DNA of 31,758 nucleotides. It comes from a virus. Under the pieces are notes generated by a model, which saw only the letters and a list, made by a program, of their open reading frames with translations, ran no database searches and had not been told where the DNA came from. Both the position numbers and the translations under genes were made by a program. Of this stretch, positions 2,538 to 29,951 are shown piece after piece. The stretch covers positions 1 through 31,758 of the IMG/VR virus record IMGVR_UViG_3300030012_003928; one strand, written 5' to 3'. The first letter of the stretch is position 1. Each line of letters begins with the position of its first letter.

Positions 2538-2908
2538 TGGAGTCATTGCAAAGTTTAGAAAAAAGCCTAACAGGCGAACAGCGTTTGCATTTAAACATTT
2601 TGATACAAGCTCGCGAAGATTTTGTAATTGCGCGTGATCATGAATACATTGATGAAAATGGTTATATTGATGAATCCGCTTTTCGTTATAAAGGTAAAGG
2701 CAAACAATTAGTTGGAGGTTTTAACACTCCAATGACTGTCACTGGACTGTATGAATTAGCTTTGTACTGGAGGAGCGGCGCACCATTGCTTTCAATTAAT
2801 GCACTAGGGATTCCAGACATTGACGCATTTGGATTTTTAAAACGATTAAACAAAGCAGCAAAAAACAGAACGCGCCTACCGTCACGCATGCCGCTCGACA
2901 CACTATGA
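2537..2908 (+). CDS. Hypothetical protein between terminase and gpW-like gene
   Basis: 123 aa. Not recognised. It is a soluble, charged protein with a helical N-terminus, an acidic stretch near residues 30-50 and a helical centre (TGLYELALYWRSGAPLL). It has one of the few clear Shine-Dalgarno sequences in the late region (GGAGG at 2522-2526), overlaps the terminase stop by one base, and overlaps the next gene by ATGA, so it is translationally coupled on both sides. Lambda has nothing between A and W, so this is lineage-specific. Packaging accessory or DNA-binding roles are possible but unsupported. Confidence 0.75.
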   Translation: MESLQSLEKSLTGEQRLHLNILIQAREDFVIARDHEYIDENGYIDESAFRYKGKGKQLVGGFNTPMTVTGLYELALYWRSGAPLLSINALGIPDIDAFGFLKRLNKAAKNRTRLPSRMPLDTL

Positions 2909-3186
2909 GAAAAATTAATATTGATTTAGATGCAATTGAAATATTAAGAAGATCGGCAGAGTCGACGCCGGGAACTTTAGCTACTTATATATCATTAAGA
3001 GAAATTGCAACAGCTTGTGAATCACCTGATTTTCATACATCAATTGAAGAAATACGATCAAGATCACTAACTAGTGAAAGATGGTGTCGACGAAATCTAA
3101 AACTGATGGAACGCAAGCGATTGATTGACAAATACAAAACCGCAAACGGTCTTAGGATCAGAATCTTAAAAGTTGCAAAGGCGTGA
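2905..3186 (+). CDS. Small wHTH-like hypothetical protein
   Basis: 93 aa, starting at the ATGA overlap with the preceding gene. The C-terminal half, with LTSERWCRRNLKLMERKRLI followed by DKYKTANGLRIRILK, has the look of a winged helix: a recognition helix, then a two-stranded wing. The N-terminal half is helical and charged. A DNA-binding role is therefore plausible. I do not recognise the family. Its stop codon TGA (3184-3186) is the first three bases of the repeated TGATCTATC element. Confidence 0.7.
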   Translation: MRKINIDLDAIEILRRSAESTPGTLATYISLREIATACESPDFHTSIEEIRSRSLTSERWCRRNLKLMERKRLIDKYKTANGLRIRILKVAKA

Positions 3187-3219
3187 TCTATCGTATTGAT
3201 CGACCGGCACTATTATAAT
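3184..3219 (+). promoter_or_regulatory. Repeated late element, copy 1 (TGATCTATC-N21-TATAAT)
   Basis: TGATCTATC at 3184-3192, 21 bases, then TATAAT at 3214-3219, two bases before the GTG start at 3222. One of five copies in the window with the same internal spacing, each just before a structural gene. The function is unknown. Confidence 0.55.
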
Positions 3220-3221
3220 TT

Positions 3222-3767
3222 GTGGCCGATACTGCTCCAAAATCAACAATTCATGCCGGTGATTCATTTAGTTGGGAATCTGATTTTTCTGATTATCCTG
3301 CAACAGATGGTTGGGATGCAATAACAGTTTTTCAAAAACCAGGGAATCAACCATTGCGCGTTATTGGTACAACATCCGGAACTAAGTTTGTGTTTACAAT
3401 AACCGCCGGCGAGTGTGCTTTATTGGAGCCTGGAAAATGGAATTATGCAATTAGAGTTAACAAAACAACGTCAAGTAAAACTCTTCAAACTGGATCAACA
3501 GAAATAAGACCAAATCCAGAAGCACCGTATGTTGAAAGCTACAACGAAAAATGTTTGCGTTTAGTTAAAGCAGCAATTGAAAACCGTCTTGAGGACGTCC
3601 AAGAATCAATTTCGATTTTAGGTCAAGACATTACAAAGGTTCCGGCAATTGAACTTGATCGCATGCTTGATCGTTTCCAAATGCGAGTAAATCGAGAACA
3701 CAAACAAAAACAATTGCTAACTGAAAACAAGCGACGCCGTAAAGGTCGAATTATTTTAAAAGGCTAA
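3222..3767 (+). CDS. gpW-like head-tail joining protein with N-terminal beta domain
   Basis: 181 aa, GTG start. It occupies exactly the gpW slot between large terminase and portal. The C-terminal part (about 105-160) has an amphipathic helix, then ILGQDITKVPAIELDRML and a charged helix, resembling the hairpin-helix pattern of gpW-type joining proteins. The first 100 residues look like a separate beta-sandwich (HAGDSFSWESDF onward). Lambda gpW is only about 68 aa, so this would be a gpW domain with an added module. The last 25 residues are strongly basic. The start is not coupled to the previous gene; it follows the repeated TGATCTATC element. The stop overlaps the portal start (taATG). Confidence 0.6.
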   Translation: MADTAPKSTIHAGDSFSWESDFSDYPATDGWDAITVFQKPGNQPLRVIGTTSGTKFVFTITAGECALLEPGKWNYAIRVNKTTSSKTLQTGSTEIRPNPEAPYVESYNEKCLRLVKAAIENRLEDVQESISILGQDITKVPAIELDRMLDRFQMRVNREHKQKQLLTENKRRRKGRIILKG

Positions 3768-5230
3768 TGAATAGTAAATATTATTTTAATCCTAAAAACG
3801 GCAAATTGACTTTACGCGAGACAAAAAAACGCGGATATGCTGCGGTTACATCGCAACAATTACAAGAGGGATGGATTGCTAGTTATTCAAATGCCAACAC
3901 TGAGTTGCGTGGCGGATTAGCTAGATTAAGAAACATGACGCGCGACCTTGAAAGGTCAAATCCGTATGTTGTTAGGTTTTTGAATGAGTGGGTGACAAAT
4001 ATTGTTGGATCAGGTTTTACTTTTCAATCATTAGCAACTAACGCCGCCGGCAGAGATGACGAACAAGCGCGGTCAATAATCGAGGAGGCGTGGGAAGAAT
4101 GGAAAAAGCCGCGTAACTGTACCGCATCAAAGGACATGAGTTATTGCGAGTTTAAAGCATTAACTGAAAGATCAATTGCGCGAGACGGTGGTATTTTAAT
4201 ACAAAAGCTGCGTGGATTTGATAACGATTACAATTTTGCGTTGCGTGTCCTAGAAATCGACAGATTAGATTTAGATTACAACAATAACAATTTGGAAAAC
4301 GGAAACCGGATTGTTATGGGTAAAGAATTAAACCGGTATGATGAAGCAATTGCATATCATTTACTTGGCGACCATCCGGGCGAAACGTACAAAAGCTATG
4401 GCAAAAAAAGAACGCGAGTGCCGGCTGATCAAATTATACATCGCTTTTATCGCAACCGGGCGGAGGCATCACACGCCGATCCATTAATAACAAGTGCTAT
4501 TATACAATTACGACACCTCGAAAAATATGAAGAAGCTGAAAGTATTGCCGCAAGAATTAGTGCAAGCTCAACAGTTGCTATTGAACGCGACTCATCGATG
4601 CCGTATGAAGGAGATGAATATTTTGACCAAGAATTAACTCCTGGTGGTAAGTGGGATTTAGAACCGGGGGAAAAAGCAACGCTTTTAAATCCAACTCATC
4701 CAAATGCAAATTATGATGGTTTTCGTTCTGGCGTTTTAAAAGGTGTTTCCGCCGGCTTGTTAATGTCTTATCCAACATTAGCACAGGATTATGGTGGTGT
4801 TAATTACAGTTCATTGCGTGAATCTAAGTTAAACATTAAAGCACTGACAAAATGTTATCGTCGTCTTAATATTGAAAATGAGGAAGAGCCAATATTTCGT
4901 GCTTGGTTGGGAACAGCATTGAGGACTGGAGCAATAAAACTTCCGGCTAGTAATTTTAACAACTTTGCAAAAGGTTCATTTACAGGTGCAGGTTTTGAAT
5001 GGGTAGATCCGGCGCGTGAAATCAACGCACTAAAAACTGAACTTGAAATTGGGGCAACTTCATTAAGTCGTGCCGTTAAAGAAAGACTTGGCGTTTCTCT
5101 TGATGTTATTATTGCAGAAAGAAAAAGGGATGTTGAAACGTTTGAAAAAGCCGGTTTGCCAGTTCCAGAAGCACTTTTAACAACGCTTGATCTATCCCAA
5201 ACAGAAGAATCAGCGAATTTACAAGAATAA
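3767..5230 (+). CDS. Portal protein (lambda gpB family)
   Basis: 487 aa, the usual length for phage_portal_2 (lambda gpB type). Recognisable segments include RLRNMTRDLERSNPYVVRFL near residues 50-70, EEWKKPRNC near 115, the LRVLEIDRLDLD stretch near 155-165, and IIHRFYRNRAEASHADPLI near 220. The C-terminal half carries YGGVNYSSLRES, a typical portal wing/crown segment. It forms the dodecameric ring at the capsid vertex through which DNA passes and to which the terminase and the gpW-like joiner attach. It is coupled to its neighbours by one-base stop/start overlaps on both sides. The last 45 nt contain copy 2 of the repeated late element in frame. Confidence 0.93.
   Translation: MNSKYYFNPKNGKLTLRETKKRGYAAVTSQQLQEGWIASYSNANTELRGGLARLRNMTRDLERSNPYVVRFLNEWVTNIVGSGFTFQSLATNAAGRDDEQARSIIEEAWEEWKKPRNCTASKDMSYCEFKALTERSIARDGGILIQKLRGFDNDYNFALRVLEIDRLDLDYNNNNLENGNRIVMGKELNRYDEAIAYHLLGDHPGETYKSYGKKRTRVPADQIIHRFYRNRAEASHADPLITSAIIQLRHLEKYEEAESIAARISASSTVAIERDSSMPYEGDEYFDQELTPGGKWDLEPGEKATLLNPTHPNANYDGFRSGVLKGVSAGLLMSYPTLAQDYGGVNYSSLRESKLNIKALTKCYRRLNIENEEEPIFRAWLGTALRTGAIKLPASNFNNFAKGSFTGAGFEWVDPAREINALKTELEIGATSLSRAVKERLGVSLDVIIAERKRDVETFEKAGLPVPEALLTTLDLSQTEESANLQE
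5188..5223 (+). promoter_or_regulatory. Repeated late element, copy 2 (TGATCTATC-N21-TTTACA)
   Basis: TGATCTATC at 5188-5196, 21 bases, TTTACA at 5218-5223, then the capsid start at 5230. This copy lies inside the portal reading frame, so the nine-mer is kept although it must also encode protein. Confidence 0.5.
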
Positions 5231-7179
5231 TGCAAACAGCTTATCGAACAATTAAAATTGAAAAAAATCAACGCGATGAAATTCCGCGTGGAATTTTAAC
5301 AACTGAACAAGCGGTACCAATGTTTGATTGGAATCGTGGCGAATTTATTCCGGAAGTTATTTTGATGAGTGGAATGTTACAACGTGGTGAGACTATAAAA
5401 CTTTTAGATACACACAACACTGATTCCGTTCGTTCAGTATTAGGATCATTTGTTGATTTACAAGTTAAGCAAGCCGGAGAAAGAAACGTCCCACATAAAT
5501 TTGTTGATGGTGAAATAAGAGTTTCAAAAACTGAACCAGACATTCAAACCAAACTTGAAGAAGGTCACATAAATGAAATGTCTATTGGTTATCGTTATGA
5601 TGATGATGAAACTATTTATTTAAAAAAAGGCGAAAGAAGAATTATTGAAGGCAAAGAGTACGAAGGCCCGATAAACATCCGCACAAAATGGGAAGCACAA
5701 GAGGCATCACTTGTTCCAATCGGTGCAGATGATCAAGCGCAAATACGAGGATTTAAGAGCATTGAAGAAGCTCAAAAAATGATTTCACAAAAGCGAAGCG
5801 AAGAAACCAACAGCGACAGCGTGACACCTGAAGTTGAAAAGATCAATGACAAGATCGAGGAATCTGATCCAGAGCCAAAAAGTGAAACCGAAACTAAACA
5901 ACAACAACCAACCATATTTATTAACATGGATCAAAAAATTGATAAAGCTGTTGAAGAAAAAGCAATTGAGGACGGCATTAAAGCCGGCCAAGAGGCTTTT
6001 GATAAGAGAGCGGATGCAATAATGGCAATCGGTGAAGAAGTCGGTGACGCACAATGGGCGATCAACGAACTCAGATCTGGTAAGTCAATTGAAGACGTTC
6101 AAAATTCAGCTATAAAAAAATTGAAAGAAGAAACTAAAAGCATCGGTGCAAAAACTGCCGAGCCTTTAGGACTAAGTAAAAAAGAGCAAAAAAGTTATTC
6201 AATAACGAACGCTATGAAATCATTGATTTCTGGTCGTGGTGTTGAAGGACTTGAAAAAGAAGTAAGTGATGCAATTGCAGAGCGTGTTGGTCGGGAGACG
6301 AACGGTTTTTTCATCGCGGAACAGCGTGACTTAGTTGCCGGAACTGCAACAGATGGCGCGGAACTAGTACCAACTGATCACCGTTCTGGTGATTTTATTG
6401 ACGCATTAAGGCCAAACATGGTCACACTGCAAGCCGGTGTGCGTGTTCTTAATGGTTTAACTGGTGACGTTTCTATTCCTAGAAAAACAACTACAAGTGC
6501 CGCAACTTTCAAAACTGAGGTTCAAGCACATGCTAACACAGAACCACAGTTTGATGCGCTTACATTGACACCGCGTCATTTGGGTACTTACACTGATGTT
6601 TCAAAGCAGCTATTGGCTCAAGGATCACCAGATGTTGATGCTCTTATTCGTGATGACTTAAATCAGGCAATTGCGGTTGCTTTAGATAAAGCAGTAATTC
6701 AAGGTGCAGGTGATGGATCAAATGAGCCACAAGGCATTATTGGTCAGGCTGATGTACCTGTAATTACAATTGCTGATAATAGTGGCGGTGAGCCAACCAA
6801 AGCAGAGTTGCATGCATTTATTAAGTCACTAGACGAAAATAATGCTTTAGGTGCTTCTTGTGCTTGGATCACAACTCCAACTATTGCTGCCAACGCAAAA
6901 CAGACTCTTTTAGATTCTGGTGTTAGTGGTTATCAGTGGGACATGGCATCAAACACCATGCTCGGTTATCCTGCACACAGTACAGCAAACATACCTGCCG
7001 AAAGGACAATTTTTGGTGAGTTTGACCAGTACATACTTGGCTTGTTCCAAGGTATAGAAATTGTTTATGATCCGTTCTCAGGTGCGAAAAATAGATTAGT
7101 CACATTTGTGCTTAATCTTATGTGTGACGGCGACGTACGTCAGCCGCTTGCATTCGCAACATCTGACAGTGGTTCATAA
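5230..7179 (+). CDS. Fused prohead protease - scaffold - HK97-fold major capsid protein
   Basis: 649 aa. Residues about 1-175 are an HK97-type (U35) prohead protease: His62 in LLDTHN, Ser118 in INEMSIGY, and the family's terminal EASLVPIGAD segment. Residues about 175-330 are acidic/basic and coiled-coil-like (many E, K and Q), as expected of a delta/scaffold domain. From about 330 to the end is an HK97-fold capsid protein, with VAGTATDGAELVP, SVPRKT-like SIPRKTTTSAATF, ALDKAVIQGAGDGSNEPQGI and MLGYPAHSTANIP. The fused order implies autoproteolysis releases the mature capsid subunit, probably near residues 320-350. An internal ATG at 5926 (INMDQKI) could also start a protease-less scaffold-capsid product. 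No separate decoration gene follows. Confidence 0.92.
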   Translation: MQTAYRTIKIEKNQRDEIPRGILTTEQAVPMFDWNRGEFIPEVILMSGMLQRGETIKLLDTHNTDSVRSVLGSFVDLQVKQAGERNVPHKFVDGEIRVSKTEPDIQTKLEEGHINEMSIGYRYDDDETIYLKKGERRIIEGKEYEGPINIRTKWEAQEASLVPIGADDQAQIRGFKSIEEAQKMISQKRSEETNSDSVTPEVEKINDKIEESDPEPKSETETKQQQPTIFINMDQKIDKAVEEKAIEDGIKAGQEAFDKRADAIMAIGEEVGDAQWAINELRSGKSIEDVQNSAIKKLKEETKSIGAKTAEPLGLSKKEQKSYSITNAMKSLISGRGVEGLEKEVSDAIAERVGRETNGFFIAEQRDLVAGTATDGAELVPTDHRSGDFIDALRPNMVTLQAGVRVLNGLTGDVSIPRKTTTSAATFKTEVQAHANTEPQFDALTLTPRHLGTYTDVSKQLLAQGSPDVDALIRDDLNQAIAVALDKAVIQGAGDGSNEPQGIIGQADVPVITIADNSGGEPTKAELHAFIKSLDENNALGASCAWITTPTIAANAKQTLLDSGVSGYQWDMASNTMLGYPAHSTANIPAERTIFGEFDQYILGLFQGIEIVYDPFSGAKNRLVTFVLNLMCDGDVRQPLAFATSDSGS

Positions 7180-7202
7180 AATTTGTTTTTATTCATAACA
7201 TA

Positions 7203-7222
7203 GGTGGGGGGTAACCCCCACC
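7203..7222 (+). terminator. GC-rich hairpin after the capsid gene
   Basis: GGTGGGGG / CCCCCACC, eight perfect pairs with a GUAA (GNRA) loop, in an otherwise A/T-rich gap. There is no U-run after it (ACATTTAT follows), so it is not a classical intrinsic terminator. It may act as a partial terminator or as an mRNA 3'-end protector for the abundant capsid message. Confidence 0.5.
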
Positions 7223-7270
7223 ACATTTATGTTAACAACTGATTCTTTTCACAATTACGACAGTAATATT

Positions 7271-7474
7271 ATGGTTAAAATAAAATTCATTAGAAGCTGC
7301 GGAGCCGGCAAGGTAGGAGAAATTAAAGAGGTTACTGAAAACGTTGCACAAACGTCAATTGCTTACCAAAACGCCGTACTTTTTACAGAAAAAGAAAAGC
7401 CAAAGCCAAAAGCAAAAAAGAAAGCAGCAAAAAAAGTTGCTAAAGCAAAGCCGCCTGTCGACGCTGAAAGATAA
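7271..7474 (+). CDS. Small head protein, lysine/alanine-rich tail
   Basis: 67 aa from ATG 7271. An ATG at 7229 would add 14 poorly structured residues, and the MVKIKFIRSCGAGKVGEIKEV opening is the natural start, resembling the short beta domain (vaguely L9-like) seen in small proteins encoded after phage capsid genes. The last 25 residues are a Lys/Ala/Pro repeat-like basic tail (KPKPKAKKKAAKKVAKAKP), which could contact DNA or the capsid. The stop overlaps the next start (taATG). The position between capsid and connector fits a head-completion or capsid accessory protein; the exact role is unknown. Confidence 0.65.
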   Translation: MVKIKFIRSCGAGKVGEIKEVTENVAQTSIAYQNAVLFTEKEKPKPKAKKKAAKKVAKAKPPVDAER

Positions 7475-7785
7475 TGAGCGAAGCGATTGCAAAAGCGATT
7501 AAATCGCAATTTGAATTTGCAAAACGCAACGGATCAAAATCACTATCAATTCAAGGCGTAACAGTGGACGCGTTAATTGTTGAGCCAATTGAAACGTTAG
7601 GCGATCAGCGAAGAGGTCGACAGCGCGGCATGCGACGTGCCATTGTTGGTGTCCTAAAATCTGATTTACCAATTGTTCCTGTACCGGGAACTAGAGCTAG
7701 TCTTGATAATTGGAATTGTGTTGTAGCTGACGAAGGTGTTGAAGAAGAAGCTTTTGCATATCGCATTCATTTAGTAAGTCCATGA
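7474..7785 (+). CDS. Putative head-tail connector/stopper (gpFII-like position)
   Basis: 103 aa, likely mostly beta. A conserved-looking core (VTVDALIVEPIETLGDQRRGRQRGMRRAIVGVLKSDLPIVPVPGTRASLD) recalls small beta-barrel stopper proteins such as lambda gpFII, in which a short barrel carries a long flexible loop. It sits immediately after the capsid genes and before the tail terminator-like gene, the correct slot for FII. It is coupled to both neighbours (taATG, ATGA). Assignment is by size, composition and order; no diagnostic motif is visible. Confidence 0.6.
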   Translation: MSEAIAKAIKSQFEFAKRNGSKSLSIQGVTVDALIVEPIETLGDQRRGRQRGMRRAIVGVLKSDLPIVPVPGTRASLDNWNCVVADEGVEEEAFAYRIHLVSP

Positions 7786-8243
7786 GCATTGTAACAACAC
7801 CGGCTGTTCTTGAATCGTTTGCAGAGAACAGAATTAAAACATTAATTGAGGCACAAGTGACAAAAGTGCCGGACGTAAACATTTTGACCGGTCACACAAT
7901 TGAAGATGATTCAATTGATCAAGAAGCACCGGTTGTTGTCATAACCGTTGTAAGAGATGAAGAGGATATACCAGGCACCGGTTGGTGGGCCTGTTCAATT
8001 GAAGTTGAACTTGATCCGCGTGATTTAGATGACGAATCAACAGATTCAACCATGCTAGAAATAGAAACCGCACTTGGTGACGGCGACGACTCAAATAAAA
8101 TTGAAGCACAATTAACTAATGGCCGACTTTTGTGCATGACTGGATCTGTCTTTTATGACTCTGAACTAGCTTACAATCCAACAGCCAATGAACGAATTAG
8201 AACTTTTACTTTTAGCGCATCTTTAGGTCTAACCGCCTCTTGA
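7782..8243 (+). CDS. Putative tail terminator (gpU-like)
   Basis: 153 aa. An N-terminal helix (ESFAENRIKTLIEAQV) is followed by alternating strands and acidic loops (VVVITVVRDEED, CSIEVELDPRD), then a terminal beta segment (FTFSASLGL). This alpha/beta layout and length match tail terminators of the lambda gpU group, which cap the tail tube at its head-proximal end. It lies directly before the tail tube gene, as expected. It starts at an ATGA overlap. Its stop codon begins copy 3 of the late element. Confidence 0.6.
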   Translation: MSIVTTPAVLESFAENRIKTLIEAQVTKVPDVNILTGHTIEDDSIDQEAPVVVITVVRDEEDIPGTGWWACSIEVELDPRDLDDESTDSTMLEIETALGDGDDSNKIEAQLTNGRLLCMTGSVFYDSELAYNPTANERIRTFTFSASLGLTAS

Positions 8244-8276
8244 TCTATCCAATCTTATAAAACCATATATTTTATT
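8241..8276 (+). promoter_or_regulatory. Repeated late element, copy 3 (TGATCTATC-N21-TTTATT)
   Basis: TGATCTATC at 8241-8249, 21 bases, TTTATT at 8271-8276, and the tail tube ATG at 8281. The intervening A/T-rich sequence carries no Shine-Dalgarno. Confidence 0.55.
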
Positions 8277-8280
8277 TATT

Positions 8281-8712
8281 ATGCCATCACCAACTTATGT
8301 AGGATCCGCCAGTGGAATGCAAAAAGGCGTTGCCAATGCTGAAACCGGAATAAAAATTGATTCTTTTGACACTTCAGTATCAGACGAAAAAGCACTTGCG
8401 TATGATGAATATGGCGGCGTGTGTGGATTTGCTCATAAATTTAATCCAAGCGTTACAATTTCTGTAAGTGGAGAAATTAGCAACACGACACAAGGATTAC
8501 CAATTTCAGTTTTTGGACAAGCAATAACTTTTGAAAACGCTGCAAATGCAAAAATTACTGATGGTGGAGATAATGATTCTAATGCCGGCGACGCTTATGC
8601 AGGAATTGACGGATCAGGTGGTTTTTATTTAGAAGACATTTCATTTTCAGAAAGTCGAGACGGGTTTAGAACGCTATCACTTACCGCAATAGCTTATCCC
8701 GGTCTAACTTAA
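8281..8712 (+). CDS. Major tail tube protein
   Basis: 143 aa, almost wholly beta and rich in Gly, Ser, Thr and Asn. SVTISVSGEIS near residue 60, GFYLEDISFSESRDGFRTLSLTAIAYP at the C-terminus and the acidic loop GGDNDSNAGDAY are typical of tail tube subunits, which end in a strand pair with a residue-identity pattern of this kind. The position between the terminator-like gene and the G/GT chaperones is where the tube gene lies in lambda-type phages. It is not coupled to its upstream gene; it is preceded by late element copy 3, fitting independent high expression. No Ig-like extra domain is present. Confidence 0.75.
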   Translation: MPSPTYVGSASGMQKGVANAETGIKIDSFDTSVSDEKALAYDEYGGVCGFAHKFNPSVTISVSGEISNTTQGLPISVFGQAITFENAANAKITDGGDNDSNAGDAYAGIDGSGGFYLEDISFSESRDGFRTLSLTAIAYPGLT

Positions 8713-8742
8713 AATAAACAATTTGCCCACGGGCCAGACTGA

Positions 8743-9243
8743 GTGGAAAACGAACAAATAAACAGCCTAAGAGACGGTCAATATATTACTGGTTCAACTG
8801 ATCTTGCGGCGTCATTAATGGCTTGCGGTGTTGCGCCGTCAAAAGATTCGCCATGTACTAACACATACACCGACGACAAACCGTTTCGATCTGGTGTCCC
8901 TGGAAAAGTTCTTTATCATCTTGAACGTCATTCAAGCACCTTTAAATCTGAAGATGGTTCATTTATACCTGCGGATAAATTAGCCGGTGGGTTTGCATCA
9001 AAAGATGCTAATGAAAAACTTGATGAATTAATTGATCAAATTGACGACGAATTATTGCGTTGCAAAATACAAGCCCAATTGCCGATTGCAATTATGAGCC
9101 ATCACCGCGCGGCATTAGGCAACCGTCAAATCATTCGTAAATGGTGGCGTAAAGTAACGCCATACTTTTATGTCAAAAAAGGAAAGAAAAGATTTTTAAT
9201 ATCTAAAGACGCAAAACAAACCGCGAGAAAATGGAACGCATAA
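8743..9243 (+). CDS. Hypothetical protein before tail chaperones
   Basis: 166 aa, GTG start at 8743. The 30-bp gap before it holds a short GCCC/GGGC hairpin. Not recognised. The N-terminal part (ITGSTDLAASLMACGVAP, then VPGKVLYHLERHSSTF) may be a small alpha/beta domain. The C-terminal part is basic and helical (RQIIRKWWRKVTPYFYVKKGKKRF). The position between tail tube and tail chaperone suggests a tail or head-tail accessory protein. It ends one base before the next ATG, so it is in the same operon. Confidence 0.7.
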   Translation: MENEQINSLRDGQYITGSTDLAASLMACGVAPSKDSPCTNTYTDDKPFRSGVPGKVLYHLERHSSTFKSEDGSFIPADKLAGGFASKDANEKLDELIDQIDDELLRCKIQAQLPIAIMSHHRAALGNRQIIRKWWRKVTPYFYVKKGKKRFLISKDAKQTARKWNA

Positions 9244-9244
9244 A

Positions 9245-9670
9245 ATGAGCTTATTTAACAAACCACAAATTTCTGAATTAGATCCAGATGACGCTTTCGA
9301 AGATTCTGACATGATGACATGGCAAGGCAAGCCGCTTTTTTGGTCGTTTCGACATTGGTATTTGTTTTTACCTATGATTAAAAAGGGCGGTGAAATGTGT
9401 GAATCAGAGCAAATAACTTTGGCACTTTGGATTGCAACACATGATGAACAACAAATAAAAGAATTGCGATGTAAGTACCGCCGCAATATGGACGAAGTTT
9501 TCGCCGATTTTGAAGAAGCACCAGAAAAACTTGGAGTCGAACCGGGATCAACGGCACTTGCAGAAGCCGGTGAAATCGTAACGCACTTAATTGAAAGCGT
9601 TACAGCATCGCAAGAGCAACTTGAAGAAAGTGACGATGATGAGGAGGATACAGGATCGCCGGGAAAGTAA
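9245..9670 (+). CDS. Tail assembly chaperone G-type
   Basis: 141 aa. Mostly helical, with an acidic C-terminus (ESDDDEEDTGSPGK). It lies between tail tube and tape measure, where every siphophage carries its tail chaperone pair. The final codons contain the lambda slippery sequence G GGA AAG, so a fraction of ribosomes should slip -1 and add the T domain. By analogy with lambda gpG/gpGT, it coats the tape measure protein and recruits tube subunits during assembly, and is absent from the virion. The helical core around residues 40-75 (EQITLALWIATHDEQQIKELRCKY) fits the family. Confidence 0.8.
   Translation: MSLFNKPQISELDPDDAFEDSDMMTWQGKPLFWSFRHWYLFLPMIKKGGEMCESEQITLALWIATHDEQQIKELRCKYRRNMDEVFADFEEAPEKLGVEPGSTALAEAGEIVTHLIESVTASQEQLEESDDDEEDTGSPGK
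9661..9667 (+). promoter_or_regulatory. Programmed -1 frameshift slippery site GGGAAAG
   Basis: In the zero frame the bases read G GGA AAG TAA. This is the X XXY YYZ heptamer with the same sequence as the lambda G-T frameshift site, placed directly before the zero-frame stop. A -1 slip opens 63 further codons. Confidence 0.85.
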
Positions 9671-9858
9671 GCAACGCCGCCGGATATGCTGCGTCACTAG
9701 CGCGAGTTTTGCCGGGACATGATTTAGATTATTATCTTGGACGCTTGCCTTATGCGCAAGGGTTACAACTTCAGAGCATTGATCTGGCTCGTAACGGCGT
9801 AAAATTTAACACACCTAAACAAAGCGATAAATCGTTTGATGACATAGCCGGAAACTAA
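9667..9858 (+). CDS. T extension of the frameshifted GT tail chaperone
   Basis: After a -1 slip at 9661-9667 translation continues from GTA at 9667 to TAA at 9856-9858, adding 63 residues to the 141-residue G protein (204 aa in total). The extension begins VSNAAGYAASLARVLPG and includes HDLDYYLGRLPYAQGLQLQ, a helical pattern typical of T domains, in which a short Leu/Pro motif precedes an amphipathic helix. It has no good start codon of its own, which supports synthesis only by frameshift. In lambda the T domain binds the tail tube protein while G binds the tape measure. Confidence 0.8.
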   Translation, partial: VSNAAGYAASLARVLPGHDLDYYLGRLPYAQGLQLQSIDLARNGVKFNTPKQSDKSFDDIAGN

Positions 9859-9863
9859 GTGCC

Positions 9864-9899
9864 GAATCTATCCATTGAAACGCTTAGTGCTAATTTAAA
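9864..9899 (+). promoter_or_regulatory. Repeated late element, copy 4 (GAATCTATC-N21-TTTAAA)
   Basis: GAATCTATC at 9864-9872 differs from the other copies only at the first two bases. After 21 bases comes TTTAAA at 9894-9899, and the GTG start follows at 9903. It lies in the gap after the GT stop. Confidence 0.45.
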
Positions 9900-9902
9900 A
9901 AT

Positions 9903-10556
9903 GTGCGTAAAATTGGTAAAACACATTTAAATGATAAGCAATGGGTTCAATCGATGAACAAATATGCCAAAGTAAAAAGGCAAATGGATCATGACGAAAT
10001 TTGTAATCACTTTGGAAGACAAGCGTGTTTGTGGGCGGTTAAGTACACACCAAAAGCGCGAAAGTCTGGATTTCTTGGTGAAGCAGCAAGACCAAAATTA
10101 AAAGGGGTTTCTGCAAAAAGATTACGCGCAACCGGTCGTGCCAGTTTTTTCCATGCTTTAGTTTCAAAACCACATGGAAAACATAATGCACATCCACGCG
10201 GCCAAGGTAATTACAATCAAGCCTTAAAAATATTTAATGGTCGACGCCGATCAATTGGTGCTAACGCCGCCGGTTTTTTAAAGCCGGCACAACAGCTTGG
10301 AAAAACTTTAAAAACCAGAAAAGCCGTTTTGATTCCAGGAGCCAGTGCATCGCGCAGTTATGGCAAAAAATCAAAAGGTGGTGAAATGGCTGCTATTGCA
10401 CACAACAATGTAGAAGGCTCTGGAGACGTAGCATTTGAACCAATGGCTCGAGCTATGAATGAGGTGTCACGACGAGAGCTTGATTTTGCTAACAGGCAAA
10501 TCGAAAAAACAAACAAAGCCTTTATGGTTAAAAGCATTGGTAAATTATTAAGATAA
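9903..10556 (+). CDS. Putative minor tail protein between GT and tape measure
   Basis: 217 aa from GTG 9903, very basic. Segments such as FGRQACLWAVKYTPKARKSG and the later basic, Gly/Ala-rich stretch resemble loosely the long basic minor tail proteins of the gpZ/HK97 gp10 type, but I cannot place it firmly. The start is doubtful. A GTG at 9859 opens a 14-codon peptide (residues PNLSIETLSANLK after the start) in another frame that runs into A5 at 9897-9901. One extra A there would join it to this ORF as LKNVRKIGK. Either the true start is 9903 or the gene is frameshifted near 9900. The stop overlaps the tape measure start. Confidence 0.65.
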   Translation: MRKIGKTHLNDKQWVQSMNKYAKVKRQMDHDEICNHFGRQACLWAVKYTPKARKSGFLGEAARPKLKGVSAKRLRATGRASFFHALVSKPHGKHNAHPRGQGNYNQALKIFNGRRRSIGANAAGFLKPAQQLGKTLKTRKAVLIPGASASRSYGKKSKGGEMAAIAHNNVEGSGDVAFEPMARAMNEVSRRELDFANRQIEKTNKAFMVKSIGKLLR

Positions 10557-11971
10557 TGGCAACTCGTAAAAACAAACTGACAACCGTTTTTGATGGTGAC
10601 GATCGACCATTTCAAAAAAAGATTAAACGTGTACAACACGCAGCAAAAAGGACTGGTGCTATTTTAGGCAAAATGGGCGGTGTTTTGGGTGGCCTTGGTC
10701 TAAGTATGGGCATGGCCCGGACTGCGCAGCACTTTGACAGAATTGCAAAAGTTGCGACTAGAATGAATATGTCTGTTGAGTCACTGCAAAGGTTATCACA
10801 CGCAGCCGAGTTATCTGGTTCTAGTCTTTCACAGTTGCAGGGAATTATGACAAGGCTTGAGCGTCGAACTGGTGAAGCATTACAAAATTCAACTGGGTCA
10901 CAAGCTGAAAGATTTAAAGAGTTAAATATTGAAGTTGAATCATTTTCTAAATTATCGCCTGAAGATAAAATATTAGCAATTGCTGATGCTTTTAATCGAC
11001 TAGGAGGCTCTGAAAAAAGCATTGCAAGTTTGATGGGCTTGTTAGATACTGAAGTTCGTGAATTAATACCGCTGTTGCAAAGTGGTTCAAAGGGTATAGA
11101 AGACATGGTAAAAGGAATTACTGTGTTAAGTAAGGAACAGATTCGAAGCATGGAAGCTGCCAATGATGGTATTACTAAATTGCAGCAATTTGGAACAACA
11201 TTATTTGGCGGTGCATTTTCGAGTTTTGACGGTATTGCTAGAGCAACAAAAGCACTTTTTAGAAGACCTGACCTAGAATTAGGAGAAAGCTATTTTGCAA
11301 AAGGGGGAGGTGATACAGCAGCAAAAATGCGAGCATACTCATATACGTCTATTTATCAAACACCAGAAAATCGAGCTTTGATGGAAAAGCACAACACTGG
11401 CGACTTGCGAATTGCTCGAAAAAAAGAACAACTTGAACTTGATCAACAGGAAAAGGAAAACAAACAACAGCAAAGAAAAATACAATTTAATTTATTGAAA
11501 AGACAAGTTAAGGATAAAGATATTTCCGGTCTTTTTCAAAGAACGACAACAGGTAAAATTTTACAAGGAGCAGGAGGTTTATTTGAAAAAATAACTGGTC
11601 AAAGTTTTGGCGACAAAGCTAAAAGTGTTTTAAGAGGTGCAGATTTTCAATTTAGAAAGGCAGGAGGTTTTGAAGCTATACAGGATAAAATTAGGGAAGC
11701 AAAACAAGCAAATAAATCAGTGCTTTTAGATAACAATGCCACAGTCATGAAAATGATTAAAAAAGAAGAAGAACAGCGTCGCAATCAACCCTCACAAACT
11801 TCTGGTCGCTTTGGCGAGTTTGTTGCAGCAGCAACACTTGGATCAGGTCGCGGTCGTTCTGTTAGTCAATCTAGAGGCATTCGCATTCAAGGTTTAGACA
11901 GAAGCGTTTTAATACAAGAAGCTATGAAAAAAGCACTTGAAGATTTAGTTGCAAATACATCAGAAAGATAA
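10556..11971 (+). CDS. Tape measure protein (short)
   Basis: 471 aa. A basic N-terminus is followed by a Gly/Met-rich hydrophobic segment (about 38-55, ILGKMGGVLGGLGLSMGMA), then the helical motif FDRIAKVATRMNMSVESLQRLSHAAELSGSSLSQLQ, characteristic of tape measure proteins. A long Lys/Gln/Glu-rich helical region occupies 270-330. It directly follows the tail chaperone genes. Tape measure length scales with tail length. At the usual roughly 0.15 nm per residue, the tail would be about 70 nm, short for a siphophage. Starts and stops overlap neighbours by one base. Confidence 0.88.
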   Translation: MATRKNKLTTVFDGDDRPFQKKIKRVQHAAKRTGAILGKMGGVLGGLGLSMGMARTAQHFDRIAKVATRMNMSVESLQRLSHAAELSGSSLSQLQGIMTRLERRTGEALQNSTGSQAERFKELNIEVESFSKLSPEDKILAIADAFNRLGGSEKSIASLMGLLDTEVRELIPLLQSGSKGIEDMVKGITVLSKEQIRSMEAANDGITKLQQFGTTLFGGAFSSFDGIARATKALFRRPDLELGESYFAKGGGDTAAKMRAYSYTSIYQTPENRALMEKHNTGDLRIARKKEQLELDQQEKENKQQQRKIQFNLLKRQVKDKDISGLFQRTTTGKILQGAGGLFEKITGQSFGDKAKSVLRGADFQFRKAGGFEAIQDKIREAKQANKSVLLDNNATVMKMIKKEEEQRRNQPSQTSGRFGEFVAAATLGSGRGRSVSQSRGIRIQGLDRSVLIQEAMKKALEDLVANTSER

Positions 11972-12648
11972 TGCCAAAACCAGAATACAAAGGTGACATA
12001 CAATGGAAATTGCAACGCGGAACAACGTTTGCTGCTGACAATAATGGAAAGGATACAGTTACGCTAATTTACAGGGGGCCAACTGACACCGCTCTAAATT
12101 TTAGATCTCGATGGCGCAAAGGCGATGCGTGTCCAGAACCGGGATTTAATCATTGCACTTTAATTAGTTTACCTAATATAAAACAAGACGAACACGCGTA
12201 TTCAACAGCAACGCTTGTTTTTGAAGGTGCAACAATAGAAACATCAACTGATGACCCTGAAAAAAAGCCTGTCACCGTTTATCGTTTTGAAGCACAACAC
12301 GCTTCATTTTGCATAGCTGATAAAAATGCACAAAATTTAAAATGTTGGTATACTTATTATGCAAAAAGAATGACAGCGGATTATGTTACAAATGTTAGAC
12401 CAACCAAGGCTTTAGCAGTTAATCAAGCACACGCTAGTAATTATTTAGCTAACCCAAAACCGGTTCCCATTAAACGTGAAGATTTTGATAAAAATTTTGC
12501 CAACCCAAAAAAAGCTGAAGAATTACAGGAACGAAAAGATTATCAGGTTATATTACCAGACGGTGCATTTTCATACACTGAAGAGGGTGGAGTTTTTACA
12601 GTGACAGAAATTTTTGAAGTTTTTCTTGAAGGTATAAACGCAGATTGA
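11971..12648 (+). CDS. Distal tail protein, unrecognised family
   Basis: 225 aa, predominantly beta. It opens with YKGDIQWKLQRGTTF and includes two strand-rich blocks (HAYSTATLVFEGATIE and VTVYRFEAQHASF). The C-terminus (YQVILPDGAFSYTEEGGVFTVTEIFEVFLEG) is also beta. It follows the tape measure, where lambda has M/L/K/I and other siphophages have the distal tail protein, but I see none of those families' motifs. A tail-tip or baseplate hub role is inferred from position only. Cotranslated with the tape measure (taATG). Confidence 0.65.
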   Translation: MPKPEYKGDIQWKLQRGTTFAADNNGKDTVTLIYRGPTDTALNFRSRWRKGDACPEPGFNHCTLISLPNIKQDEHAYSTATLVFEGATIETSTDDPEKKPVTVYRFEAQHASFCIADKNAQNLKCWYTYYAKRMTADYVTNVRPTKALAVNQAHASNYLANPKPVPIKREDFDKNFANPKKAEELQERKDYQVILPDGAFSYTEEGGVFTVTEIFEVFLEGINAD

Positions 12649-13514
12649 TGATAGGCAAAAAACCAGAGCGGCCAAAGGGTGGTTTTAAAATTCATGAAAA
12701 ACAAGTTCAAGACTTGTGGGACTGGTTAAACCGCGAACGTGTGCTTGATGGGCCGGGTGTGCAAAATACAGGAAACGGCAAAAAAATTACTTGGAGACAA
12801 GACGAGTTTTCGCCAATGTTTAGACCGTATTTTAATCGGGAATCAAAATACATTATTAAAATGGGAATCCGTACCGGTTACGTTTACGCGCCTTATGACG
12901 ACGGTAATTCAACGCATCTTCCAATGCTTCACCGCTTTCCTTTTGAACCTAAAATTGGCAATAACACATTGTCATCTAGTCCATCGCCATCATTAACATT
13001 AGAAAATTCAGCAACAAATTATATATATTTAAAATTAACATGGGGGTCATTTTTAAGTGCCGTTGGTGGATTTGAAGAAGACAGTACACATGCGTTTAAA
13101 GCAGAACAACACACACACATCGTTAGTGGATATACCGAAAGTGCTGATGTCGGTAGTGGTTCTGGAAGCAGTCATTTACATGTTTTAGGATCATCTGTTA
13201 CTGTGTCAAATGCTGATGTGTTTTTAAAAGTAAACAAAAAGACTTATTATTTAAGTAGTGCAGAGTTTATTTCTCAAACCTCTGATACACCACCAACCGA
13301 AACAGAAACCGAAACCAACATGCTTTGCGGTTGGATAAAACTTGATGCAAATGGTGATCTTGATACAGCAACAAACGACGGATCAAGGTGGTTTATAGAG
13401 GGGCCGGTCTTTGTCGACAAGAATCCAATTTATATAACTGGTAAAAGCTCACCTGATAGAACCGAGCCGGTTGCACCAGTTGCGTCATCTGGTCAGACTA
13501 TTCCAGGAGAGTGA
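12648..13514 (+). CDS. Putative tail-tip or baseplate protein
   Basis: 288 aa from the ATG at 12648, which overlaps the previous TGA (TGATG); the TTG one codon upstream is less likely. The N-terminal 45 residues are helical and basic (HEKQVQDLWDWLNRERVLDGPG). The rest is beta-rich with Ser/Thr/Asn repeats and a loop rich in His and Ser (AEQHTHIVSGYTESADVGSGSGSSHLHV, here cited as two halves around residue 165). Similar long surface loops occur in virion tip proteins. The family is not recognised. The stop TGA begins copy 5 of the late element. Confidence 0.6.
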   Translation: MIGKKPERPKGGFKIHEKQVQDLWDWLNRERVLDGPGVQNTGNGKKITWRQDEFSPMFRPYFNRESKYIIKMGIRTGYVYAPYDDGNSTHLPMLHRFPFEPKIGNNTLSSSPSPSLTLENSATNYIYLKLTWGSFLSAVGGFEEDSTHAFKAEQHTHIVSGYTESADVGSGSGSSHLHVLGSSVTVSNADVFLKVNKKTYYLSSAEFISQTSDTPPTETETETNMLCGWIKLDANGDLDTATNDGSRWFIEGPVFVDKNPIYITGKSSPDRTEPVAPVASSGQTIPGE

Positions 13515-13547
13515 TCTATCTAAAAAAAGCATTCACTTTATTATATT
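13512..13547 (+). promoter_or_regulatory. Repeated late element, copy 5 (TGATCTATC-N21-TATATT)
   Basis: TGATCTATC at 13512-13520, 21 bases, TATATT at 13542-13547, and the GTG start at 13551. Together with copy 1, the closest match to a sigma70 -10 sequence. Confidence 0.55.
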
Positions 13548-13550
13548 TAA

Positions 13551-14615
13551 GTGAGTGTCCATAAAATAGCCTTTACAGGTGACCAAGTTTTTACCGCAAC
13601 ACATACCAGTGGGAGCGGCATATATTTTAGGTCTACAGACTTAGATGATCATGATAATTTAACTTTATATGGCGAGCAGACAAGCGGATCGACTGCCGCT
13701 CGCACCGTTTTAACATCACAATCAACTGGCGGAAAAATTGAAAGATTAAGTGCTGACGCTTGGAATAAGCTATATTTAGTTGATTACGGTATTGGATCGA
13801 ATTTTGAAGGTATTGGCAGTGTGTTTTCTAATGACGGTACACCTGCAACTGGTTCTGTTAAAATAACAAATCAACCAAGCGACGGTGAAAACATTCAAAT
13901 TGGATTAACTGGTTTTTTGTTTACATATACGTTCAAAACAAACGTTGCCGGGTCACAAGCCGGACAAGTTAAAATAGGCACTAATACATCTGAAACTGCT
14001 GATAATTTAGCAAGTGCAATCAATGATGCTCAAACTGGCGCAACTAATCCAATTGAAAACACTGATTACAAGGCTTATTCAAGCCACCCATATTTGTCAG
14101 CCACAAGCTCAAGTGGGACAATTACTTTAACTGACAAAATTAATTGTAAACGCCAGTTGGCATGGGTAATTACGCCATACGACGCTGCTGATTTCGCAAT
14201 TTGTCCAATTCGTGGTGGCATCGATGGAACATTAATTGTTGCAATGGCTGCCGGTACAAACAGCGCATCATTGTCATCAACATCTGGTCTAAGTTTAGAT
14301 TCTGAAGATTTAACAACAGCAAATGTTATATCTGGCGTTCCAACTTTTTCAGACGCAGTTAGAGTTGGAGGCCGTTTTGCTTTGTCAATAAGAGCTAACA
14401 CATCACCTAATGGCGCAATTACGGGAATTGTTCAGTTAAGTAATGACGGAATAAATTTTAATCACGACGCGACCGGATGGACTGATATTGATACTGACCA
14501 CGATCAATACATTTTGGCGAGTGATTACTTTGCAGAATTTGCACGACTTAAATTTAATAATTACTCCGCAACAAATGCAATTGCGTTAAATATAAAATTC
14601 ATTTCACAAAGCTAA
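13551..14615 (+). CDS. Beta-rich virion structural protein
   Basis: 354 aa, GTG start. Two kinds of domain are visible. Residues about 95-185 carry the GENIQIGLTGFLFTYTFKTN and GQVKIGTNTSETADNLASAI pattern, a small alpha/beta repeat seen in many phage and secreted structural proteins. The last 80 residues (VRVGGRFALSIRANTSP, then IVQLSNDGINF) look like a beta-sandwich that may bind sugars or neighbouring fibre subunits. It precedes the giant fibre and is joined to it by a one-base overlap, so it may be the fibre's attachment or collar protein. Its start is uncoupled and follows late element copy 5. Confidence 0.65.
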   Translation: MSVHKIAFTGDQVFTATHTSGSGIYFRSTDLDDHDNLTLYGEQTSGSTAARTVLTSQSTGGKIERLSADAWNKLYLVDYGIGSNFEGIGSVFSNDGTPATGSVKITNQPSDGENIQIGLTGFLFTYTFKTNVAGSQAGQVKIGTNTSETADNLASAINDAQTGATNPIENTDYKAYSSHPYLSATSSSGTITLTDKINCKRQLAWVITPYDAADFAICPIRGGIDGTLIVAMAAGTNSASLSSTSGLSLDSEDLTTANVISGVPTFSDAVRVGGRFALSIRANTSPNGAITGIVQLSNDGINFNHDATGWTDIDTDHDQYILASDYFAEFARLKFNNYSATNAIALNIKFISQS

Positions 14616-25642: not shown

Positions 25643-25957
25643 ATGATAAAGCAATTAGAAATGTATCCGTTTGGTGCCGGTTTTAAAGAAATTGCCGGGG
25701 CCAGTAAAGAAAACGCCAAAAAACAAAACAAAGAATTAAACAACAAACGACGAATGATGGCGTTGCGTTTGTTTAAATTGCATCCTAACGGACTAACAAG
25801 CGATGAAGTCGCGGATTTAATGAATGATAACATTTTAGCCATTCGACCACGCGTTTCAGAATTGCGAGCGCAAGACAAAATTGAATCAACTGGACAAAGA
25901 CGCAAATCAGCAAATGGCAATGGTGCAACCGTATGGAGGATAAAAAATGGAATCTAA
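25643..25957 (+). CDS. Winged-helix DNA-binding protein
   Basis: 104 aa. The core RMMALRLFKLHPNGLTSDEVADLMN and IRPRVSELRAQDKIESTG, with ATVWRI at the end, is a typical wHTH: helix, positioning helix, recognition helix (RPRVSELRAQ), two-stranded wing. Such small phage proteins sit beside initiators and exonucleases and may regulate early transcription or assist replication. It starts six bases after the initiator stop and overlaps the next gene by 11 bases. Confidence 0.7.
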   Translation: MIKQLEMYPFGAGFKEIAGASKENAKKQNKELNNKRRMMALRLFKLHPNGLTSDEVADLMNDNILAIRPRVSELRAQDKIESTGQRRKSANGNGATVWRIKNGI

Positions 25958-28332: not shown

Positions 28333-28683
28333 ATGCAAGTTAAAATATTTAGAGAATTTGAATTTTCGGCGGCTCATTATTTGAATAATGAAAATCACAA
28401 ATCCAGTCGTTTACATGGTCACAATTATAAACTCAAAATTGAAGTAAAGGGTGTGGTAGATGAAAATCGAAAAATGATTGATTTTAGAGAAATAAAAAAA
28501 CAAGTAAAACCAGTTTTAAAAATGGTTGATCATCAAAATTTAAATCAATCTTTAAAAATTGATCCGACGTCGTGCGAAAGTTTATGTATTTGGTTTTATG
28601 CTGCGTTGAAAGATCGTATTTCTGGAATAACTAAAATAGAAATTAGAGTAACAGATAAATGCGGCGCAATATTTGAAGTTTAA
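28333..28683 (+). CDS. QueD/PTPS-like protein with altered active site
   Basis: 116 aa, full length for QueD. Zinc ligands are present: His15 (EFSAAH), His28 and His30 (RLHGHNY). The Asp66-His67 pair (VDHQNLN) is kept, as is DPTSCESLCIW. However, E. coli QueD reads HKCGRLHGH where this protein reads HKSSRLHGH, so the catalytic Cys is Ser24. The Glu of the C-terminal V-K-E-T motif is Val106. QueD makes 6-carboxytetrahydropterin in the preQ0/queuosine and 7-deazaguanine DNA pathway. No other queuosine or deazaguanine gene (FolE, QueE, QueC, DpdA) is in the window. Either a changed reaction or a non-enzymatic role is possible. Its stop overlaps that of the integrase. Confidence 0.85.
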   Translation: MQVKIFREFEFSAAHYLNNENHKSSRLHGHNYKLKIEVKGVVDENRKMIDFREIKKQVKPVLKMVDHQNLNQSLKIDPTSCESLCIWFYAALKDRISGITKIEIRVTDKCGAIFEV

Positions 28684-29798
28684 AAAGAAACTTTAGCCGC
28701 CATTTGTTTTTGATGGCCGCTTAGATTCATGGCATAAACTTTTAAAAGCATTGCACCACCGTCAGAATCACCACGCCAAGCCGCAACGGTTGGAACATCA
28801 ACACCGGCATTTAAACATTTTGTCGTAAAATATTTTCTCATATCTGCGCGTGTTAAACGTGGCGTCATTCCAATGCGATAAGCGGCATTTTCCATTGCTT
28901 TTCTTGGACTTTTAACGGTCACAACCTTATCAGATGGTTTTGCGTCTGGGTACGTCTCTTTAATTTCAAGCAATAGTGCTTTTAGATTGTCGTTCATTGG
29001 CAACTCGCGGCCATCGCCTTGATCTTTAGCCGATTGCTTTTGACGGTCGTTTTTAGTGCCGGTTTCCGGATCGCCTTTAATGTGGACAATTTCGTTTTCA
29101 AAATCAACGTCGGCCCACGTTAATTGATAGGCTTCAGAATCCGGACGCATGCCAGAGTATGCTAACAAACGCACATAATGATCACGTTCCAAACCACCTT
29201 TCTCTTTTTTCATTTCATCAAGCCATTTCTGAAATGTTTCATCGTCAGGCAATTTGATTTTACGGATCACATCAGGAACACGTTTAACGTCAGTAATTGG
29301 TTCAATATAAACACCAAATTTTTCAGCCTCTTTAATAATGTTGCCAAATATGCCCTTGCAACGATTAAACCGTGATGTGGCATAATGGGTTCGCATGTAC
29401 TTAAAAAATGCAAGAATGTGATTTTTGCTAATGTCTTTGAGCTTTTGAGCGTTGGCGTCTTGATGCCAATGCTTTTTGATGTAACCAAGGCATCGTTTTT
29501 CAAACTTTATTGAATTGGGTTTAAGATGCAGACTATTGTCAGCGCGTTCAATCATTTCATCTATAATTGCGCCTAGTGTGCGGCCATGATCACGTTGTGA
29601 GGCTATCTTTTGACCAGTCTCAACACGCTTGATTAATTCGCGTAATTTTGACTTGGCAATTTCTAGTTGATCGGTTTTAAGACTTTTAAAAGTTTGTTTG
29701 CCATCGACCGATATCCGGGCATAATACTTTCCGCTTTGACGCTTATATAAATAATTGTGCCTAGTTTTTATCCATTCAGATTTGTTAGCAGTTTTCAT
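28680..29798 (-). CDS. int: Tyrosine recombinase integrase
   Basis: 372 aa, minus strand. An N-terminal arm-binding-like domain (YLYKRQSGKYYARISVDGKQ) and a helical core-binding domain (about 70-175) are followed by the catalytic domain. Arg218 (YSGMRPD) is box I, Arg321 (ADMRKYF) and Tyr355 (KVYAM) are present, and a candidate Lys lies at 249. The histidines normally at the HxxR position and in the LGH motif are Ala318 and Asp344. The SDGGAM spacing before Tyr and the C-terminal AAKVSF recall integrases from Verrucomicrobiota. It integrates the phage at attP, which lies directly upstream. The P' arm repeats overlap its probable promoter, suggesting autoregulation. Confidence 0.93.
   Translation of the reverse strand: MKTANKSEWIKTRHNYLYKRQSGKYYARISVDGKQTFKSLKTDQLEIAKSKLRELIKRVETGQKIASQRDHGRTLGAIIDEMIERADNSLHLKPNSIKFEKRCLGYIKKHWHQDANAQKLKDISKNHILAFFKYMRTHYATSRFNRCKGIFGNIIKEAEKFGVYIEPITDVKRVPDVIRKIKLPDDETFQKWLDEMKKEKGGLERDHYVRLLAYSGMRPDSEAYQLTWADVDFENEIVHIKGDPETGTKNDRQKQSAKDQGDGRELPMNDNLKALLLEIKETYPDAKPSDKVVTVKSPRKAMENAAYRIGMTPRLTRADMRKYFTTKCLNAGVDVPTVAAWRGDSDGGAMLLKVYAMNLSGHQKQMAAKVSF

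Positions 29799-29910: not shown

Positions 29911-29951
<41 letters not shown>

Follow-up and report, generated by a model that had tools for sequence, protein, structure and literature searches.

The middle promoters of phage T4 retain the sigma-70 −10 element. They are activated by sigma appropriation through MotA and AsiA, where a box read by the phage takes the place of the −35 (PMC6755090). In phage P2, the late promoters PP, PO, PV and PF share an activator box and are served by one small phage activator, Ogr (PMC3931495), and the late regulator of phi13 has its repeats within the 3' end of its own gene (PMC13123087). Among leaderless transcripts, the lambda cI mRNA is the best studied one (PMC11514452).

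We have analysed IMGVR_UViG_3300030012_003928, positions 1–31,758, i.e., the whole stretch of 31,758 nucleotides (hereafter the window), which probably comes from a marine virus with a bacterial host. An exact search finds ATCTATC at 3186, 5190, 8243, 9866 and 13514, all on the + strand, and no further copy on either strand; the earlier note had rightly counted five copies and no other on the + strand. The full nine-base box is TGATCTATC in four of the five copies and GAATCTATC in copy 4. From boxes 1 to 5, the start codon follows at 30, 34, 32, 31 and 31 nt, and on recheck both the distances given in the earlier note and its remark on the missing stop/start overlaps have proved to be correct. 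As to the genes served, the names joiner and capsid were confirmed by PHROGs, but the tube, minor tail and distal tail names found no family match. The boxes, their −10 elements and the genes behind them are as follows.

3184–3192, + strand: box 1, TGATCTATC; the 2905–3186 gene ends with its TGA
3211–3216, + strand: −10 of putative promoter 1, TATTAT; joiner GTG at 3222, predicted +1 at about 3223
3222–3767, + strand: head-tail joining protein, first gene after promoter 1; GTG start, PHROGs match
5188–5196, + strand: box 2, TGATCTATC; within the portal gene, frame L-D-L-S
5215–5220, + strand: −10-like element of putative promoter 2, GAATTT; capsid ATG at 5230, predicted +1 at about 5227
5230–7179, + strand: major head protein with protease region, first gene after promoter 2; PHROGs match
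7203–7222, + strand: G+C-rich hairpin, GGTGGGGGGTAACCCCCACC, separating the capsid gene from its downstream neighbour
8241–8249, + strand: box 3, TGATCTATC; the 7782–8243 gene ends with its TGA
8268–8273, + strand: −10 of putative promoter 3, TATTTT; ATG at 8281, predicted +1 at about 8280
8281–8712, + strand: gene behind promoter 3; its position suggests the tail tube, no family match
9864–9872, + strand: box 4, GAATCTATC
9891–9896, + strand: −10 of putative promoter 4, TAATTT; GTG at 9903, predicted +1 at about 9903
9903–10556, + strand: gene behind promoter 4 and ahead of the tape measure gene; no family match
13512–13520, + strand: box 5, TGATCTATC; the 12645–13514 gene ends with its TGA
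13539–13544, + strand: −10 of putative promoter 5, TATTAT; GTG at 13551, predicted +1 at about 13551
13551–14615, + strand: gene after promoter 5; no family match

The number of ATCTATC copies is unremarkable by itself, as at least five copies occur in 19% of dinucleotide shuffles, and the plain motif count was dropped as evidence. A loose search for the nine-mer with 2 mismatches was likewise uninformative, giving 125 scattered matches. The placement tells more: all five boxes lie inside a 6-nt zone ahead of a start codon, for which the rough chance is 1e-11. In addition, a two-part position weight matrix (PWM) of box and −10 recovers five sites in the window, compared with 0.33 matches per shuffled genome, and no site on the − strand of the window; surplus matches are the same boxes at alternative spacings.

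The second half of the element was resolved with a box-anchored profile of 56 copies from 15 phages. In this profile, positions +19 to +24 read T, A, W, W, W, T, and the information peaks at T19 (1.18 bits), A20 (0.84) and T24 (0.93). Of 52 copies, 32 have TAnnnT at offset 19, and no other offset has it in more than 8. The fixed spacing claimed earlier is therefore real, but the proposed TWTA after 21 bases was out of register by 3 nt and is replaced, on the profile and the offset counts, by TAWWWT after 18. That is, the element is a box, 18 nt and a sigma-70-type −10 at a fixed place, and a start codon simply lies close by. With the copies aligned on the box, the best six columns sum to 4.27 bits, versus 3.18 when aligned on the start. 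The start codon lies 30–35 nt after the box in 52 of the 54 copies with an assigned start; the exceptions are the tube junctions of L028 and L032, where it is 50 or 56 nt off with the −10 in register, and at that of L032 a perfect TATAAT stands at offset 19 with the start codon 56 nt from the box. Since the −10 keeps register with the box and not with the start codon, box and −10 should be the functional pair. No TTGACA-like hexamer is found 16–18 nt before the −10; in the aligned copies, the box with its CTAT core ends 18 nt before the −10, where TTGACA would be expected. Promoter 2 has a weak −10 (GAATTT). A separate sigma-70-like site at 643–671 (ATGACA-N17-TATAAT) is not kept in L007, L010 and L012, and was set aside as chance or local.

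If the T of position 24 is set as −7, the transcript is predicted to start at about box position 31, which agrees with the earlier remark that a promoter would put the start at the start codon. Because +1 would fall at or near the start codon, leaderless or near-leaderless translation is to be expected. No Shine-Dalgarno sequence precedes the five served starts in the window. Over the window, a Shine-Dalgarno-like 4-mer is seen at 5 of 35 gene starts, and the host may therefore depend little on Shine-Dalgarno initiation. All of the ~30 box-bearing relatives, down to 41% protein identity, start the joiner with GTG. Hairpins like the one at 7203–7222 also stand ahead of the next gene in L008 and L033–L035; it is possible that this hairpin is a terminator that closes or isolates the capsid transcript.

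Two portal searches of viral contigs provided about 40 loci from related phages (L numbers). Homologous boxes are found in ~30 related viral contigs, with portals 60–99% identical, at the same five junctions, i.e., upstream of the joiner, capsid, tube, 9903 and 13551 genes. Among these relatives, the spacer between box and −10 diverges and the box stays. The two-part PWM finds at most five junction sites per relative, on the coding strand, and essentially nothing elsewhere, including the non-structural arms of near-complete genomes; no box was seen at the other late gene starts among those listed. Both outcomes that the earlier note had named as refuting, namely many copies away from starts and no conservation of element and spacing in related phages, are thus contrary to what we observe. 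In the GC-rich clade L033–L035, which shows poor −10 matches, and at 1–2 degenerate sites each in L021, L014, L028, L032 and L053, the box falls below the PWM threshold and was recognised by alignment. The CTAT core is missing at one junction copy, the capsid junction of L028/L029. Four isolate genomes, CRP-831, CRP-406, CRP-811 and S-CBS3, are without the box.

The earlier note had also remarked that the element is kept inside portal coding sequence, and indeed the frame L-D-L-S is read across box 2. Many other phages read L-D-L-S there too, while in L005, L006, L008, L012 and L015 the TGA of the portal/capsid box is the portal stop codon. As the reading at this junction varies, a coding constraint on the box was ruled out.

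The flank letters of the box outside the CTAT core are common to the junctions within one phage and differ between phages. The within-phage excess is 1.49 matches (permutation sd 0.13), a value reached by 0 of 2000 permutations; for neighbouring control segments it is just about 0.2–0.3. The window's clade has TGATCTATC, L023–L026 have TGATCTATT or TGATCTATA, L021 has TGACCTATTCCC, and boxes like TNGTCTATCG and TAACTATCG are found in L028/L032 and L033–L035, respectively; those of L014 and L022 are weaker (AAATCTAT). Such change in concert within a phage argues for a co-evolving DNA-binding factor.

The candidate for this factor is encoded directly upstream of promoter 1, next to a second small gene.

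2537–2908, + strand: mainly helical protein of 123 aa; in L034/L035 it is fused to the winged-HTH protein
2905–3186, + strand: candidate late regulator, a 93-aa winged-HTH protein

In the 2905 family, 7 of 14 members match Pfam MarR_2 (best 4.8e-6), and the PHROG scan gives weak mixed matches, one of them to a general transcriptional-regulator family. The AlphaFold2 model (pLDDT 86.8) is a winged HTH with a predicted MarR-like recognition helix and wing. By Foldseek and VIA-align it groups with the DNA-binding domains of MarR, Fur and CRP, with a VIA-align Z of about 9–10 against the latter two. Most MarR or CRP sites are palindromic, which the box is not. The encoded protein has 93 residues in nearly all relatives. 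In a profile search, the 2905 gene turns up in the box-bearing relatives with a contig that extends over this region, L014 and L022 being the exceptions, and no homologue is matched in the four box-less isolates; as these phages share ancestry, this co-occurrence is confounded by descent and is not independent evidence. In L014 (11 kb contig) and L022 (6 kb contig), the boxes are kept and the gene is missing from its usual place; it may lie elsewhere in the genome or have been lost. In L013 and L018–L020, the gene is inverted between terminase and joiner, divergent from the joiner. The joiner retains its box in these four, from which it follows that the box and the gene can be separated. The inverted gene has TTGAAM-N17-TATATT 8 nt before its ATG, by sequence a sigma-70-like, near-leaderless promoter. 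Between recognition helix and box, co-variation shows a slight excess only (drop 0.41 vs 0.33 for the rest). The 2537 protein is a possible partner of the 2905 protein; its helical model has no convincing PDB match, and an AsiA-like role for it thus found no support. The winged-HTH protein at 25643 was discarded as the regulator, being found in G009 only among the relatives searched.

Based on the above analyses, we regard the elements as very probably promoters, and near-leaderless starts as likely. Host RNA polymerase with a sigma-70-type factor would read the −10 TAWWWT, and the 9-bp box at about −39 to −31 would stand in for the −35 hexamer and be read by a phage DNA-binding activator, most likely the 2905 protein. 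It is reasonably probable that this protein is the reader of the box, and, given binding, we would expect with considerable confidence that it activates rather than represses. The protein would be made from the terminase transcript or, in the inverted relatives, from its own sigma-70-like promoter. It would then switch on five short units headed by the joiner, capsid, tube, 9903 and 13551 genes. With +1 at or a few bases from the start codon, each unit should have a leaderless or almost leaderless mRNA for its first gene, and the later genes would be translated mostly by stop/start overlap. Taken as a whole, we judge it probable that the five elements are late promoters of a phage-specific regulon, for which the 2905 protein is the likeliest activator.

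This explanation has to be weighed against others. The same promoters may have a box read by another factor, either an alternative sigma or another host or phage activator, which we consider unlikely but worth bearing in mind. The box stands where sigma region 4 reads the −35, S-CBS3, a distant relative, encodes a group 2 sigma factor, and L014/L022 have boxes with no 2905 gene in place. However, no sigma-like protein was found among the window proteins tested, and concerted, clade-specific change of the box favours a phage-borne reader. The window does encode other small HTH proteins (at 25643 and 27885), but by phmmer their genes are not common to all near-complete relatives, as the 2905 gene is by profile search. 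It is rather improbable that the 2905 protein is instead a repressor that keeps the virion genes silent in the prophage or in early infection. MarR-type proteins, whose fold it shares, often repress, the box overlaps the −35 zone, and the window carries an integrase gene, so the virus is probably temperate. Yet promoters without a TTGACA-like −35 should need help rather than silencing, and phage late activators such as Ltr are typically encoded just ahead of a late promoter under their control (PMC13123087), as the 2905 protein would be.

Two further readings would do without a promoter. The RNA roles raised by the earlier note, namely a ribosome-loading or processing site in the mRNA about 30 nt before the start codon, are consistent with the near-constant distance from box to start and with the near absence of Shine-Dalgarno-like 4-mers (5 of 35 genes), but we hold them to be very unlikely. 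The second half of the element has a −10 profile and tracks the box instead of the start codon, the −10 is in place at the L028 and L032 tube junctions where the start codon is 50–56 nt off, and the other junctions of the same operons, among those listed, are without a box. Nor does the location of the boxes at gene junctions make module-boundary recombination sequences of no regulatory role a credible account, since the elements are directional, confined to five fixed junctions, in register with a −10, and co-evolving in their letters within each phage.

Some other features of the window bear on the virus and its host. Two scans of genome contigs with portal alignments found no relative for host assignment. 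Beside the integrase gene (28680–29798, − strand), for which no phage match was found, the 5' half of a tRNA-Phe(GAA)-like sequence lies at 29911–29951. This fragment is likely the attP core; it matches many bacterial taxa equally. At 9245–9860, a tail-chaperone-like gene is followed by an overlapping reading frame, which by analogy suggests a programmed frameshift as in lambda G/GT. The product of the 14615–21505 gene (2296 aa) is fibre-like and highly repetitive, and carries many DDGSGG...YF-LDG repeats. A PTPS/QueD-like gene lies at 28333–28683; in the relative G006 (L048, 8801–10831), a QueD homologue stands beside QueC-, FolE- and QueE-like genes by sequence, which suggests 7-deazaguanine DNA modification.

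Overall, these results offer a late-gene switch that can be put to the test in a group of uncultured phages, for which the literature searched gave no description of regulation. Its components are a box of nine bases, a 93-residue protein as candidate regulator and, in each genome, five transcription starts whose positions can be predicted. With its clade-specific variants, the box also provides a natural series in which the joint change of an activator and its sites can be followed. Phage virion genes are usually among the most strongly expressed. If the transcripts are leaderless, virion genes would be expressed with no landing site for the ribosome, a matter of relevance to the efficiency of leaderless and non-Shine-Dalgarno initiation in the host. 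Tentatively, we may even be dealing with an uncultured, probably marine phage group that has a five-promoter leaderless virion regulon and a new winged-HTH activator, the 2905 family with possibly the 2537 protein as partner, which replaces the sigma −35 contact and whose site has co-diverged several times.

Our literature searches found no description of this element, so the earlier statement that no element of this form is described holds for the sequence of the box; it does not hold for the regulatory logic, which is known from P2, Ltr/RinA and the T4 middle promoters. As with P2 Ogr, several dispersed late promoters would each head an operon of virion genes. On the other hand, the P2 box is TGT-N12-ACA with a zinc-finger reader, whereas here we have a 9-bp non-palindromic box and a winged-HTH candidate. 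No TGT-N12-ACA signal is present in the 56-copy consensus (TGATCTATC), whose columns reach 12 nt upstream of the core, and the zinc motif CX2CX22CX4C is not in the 2905 protein. The Ogr box also sits further upstream, near −55, compared with about −39 to −31 here, where leaderless starts are predicted.

With staphylococcal and lactococcal RinA, Ltr and Alt, the likeness is a small phage protein encoded just upstream of the promoter it controls. The 2905 gene has this position directly upstream of a putative late promoter, which its product may control, and box 1 overlaps the 2905 stop codon, reminiscent of the repeats of phi13. Those regulators control one late promoter through several repeats, but here there are five putative promoters with one box each, and the searches run gave no sequence match to these families. 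The T4 middle promoters are alike in that a phage-read box is proposed to replace the −35, with the sigma-70 −10 kept. MotA differs in being a two-domain protein with a double-wing DNA-binding domain that works with AsiA, and the promoters here serve virion genes; Pfam and PHROG scans of the window proteins, which compare sequence families and not folds, gave no match to MotA or AsiA. Finally, as in lambda cI, the transcript is predicted to begin at the start codon, but here this would apply to a whole virion gene set, GTG starts included, at positions conserved in a phage group.
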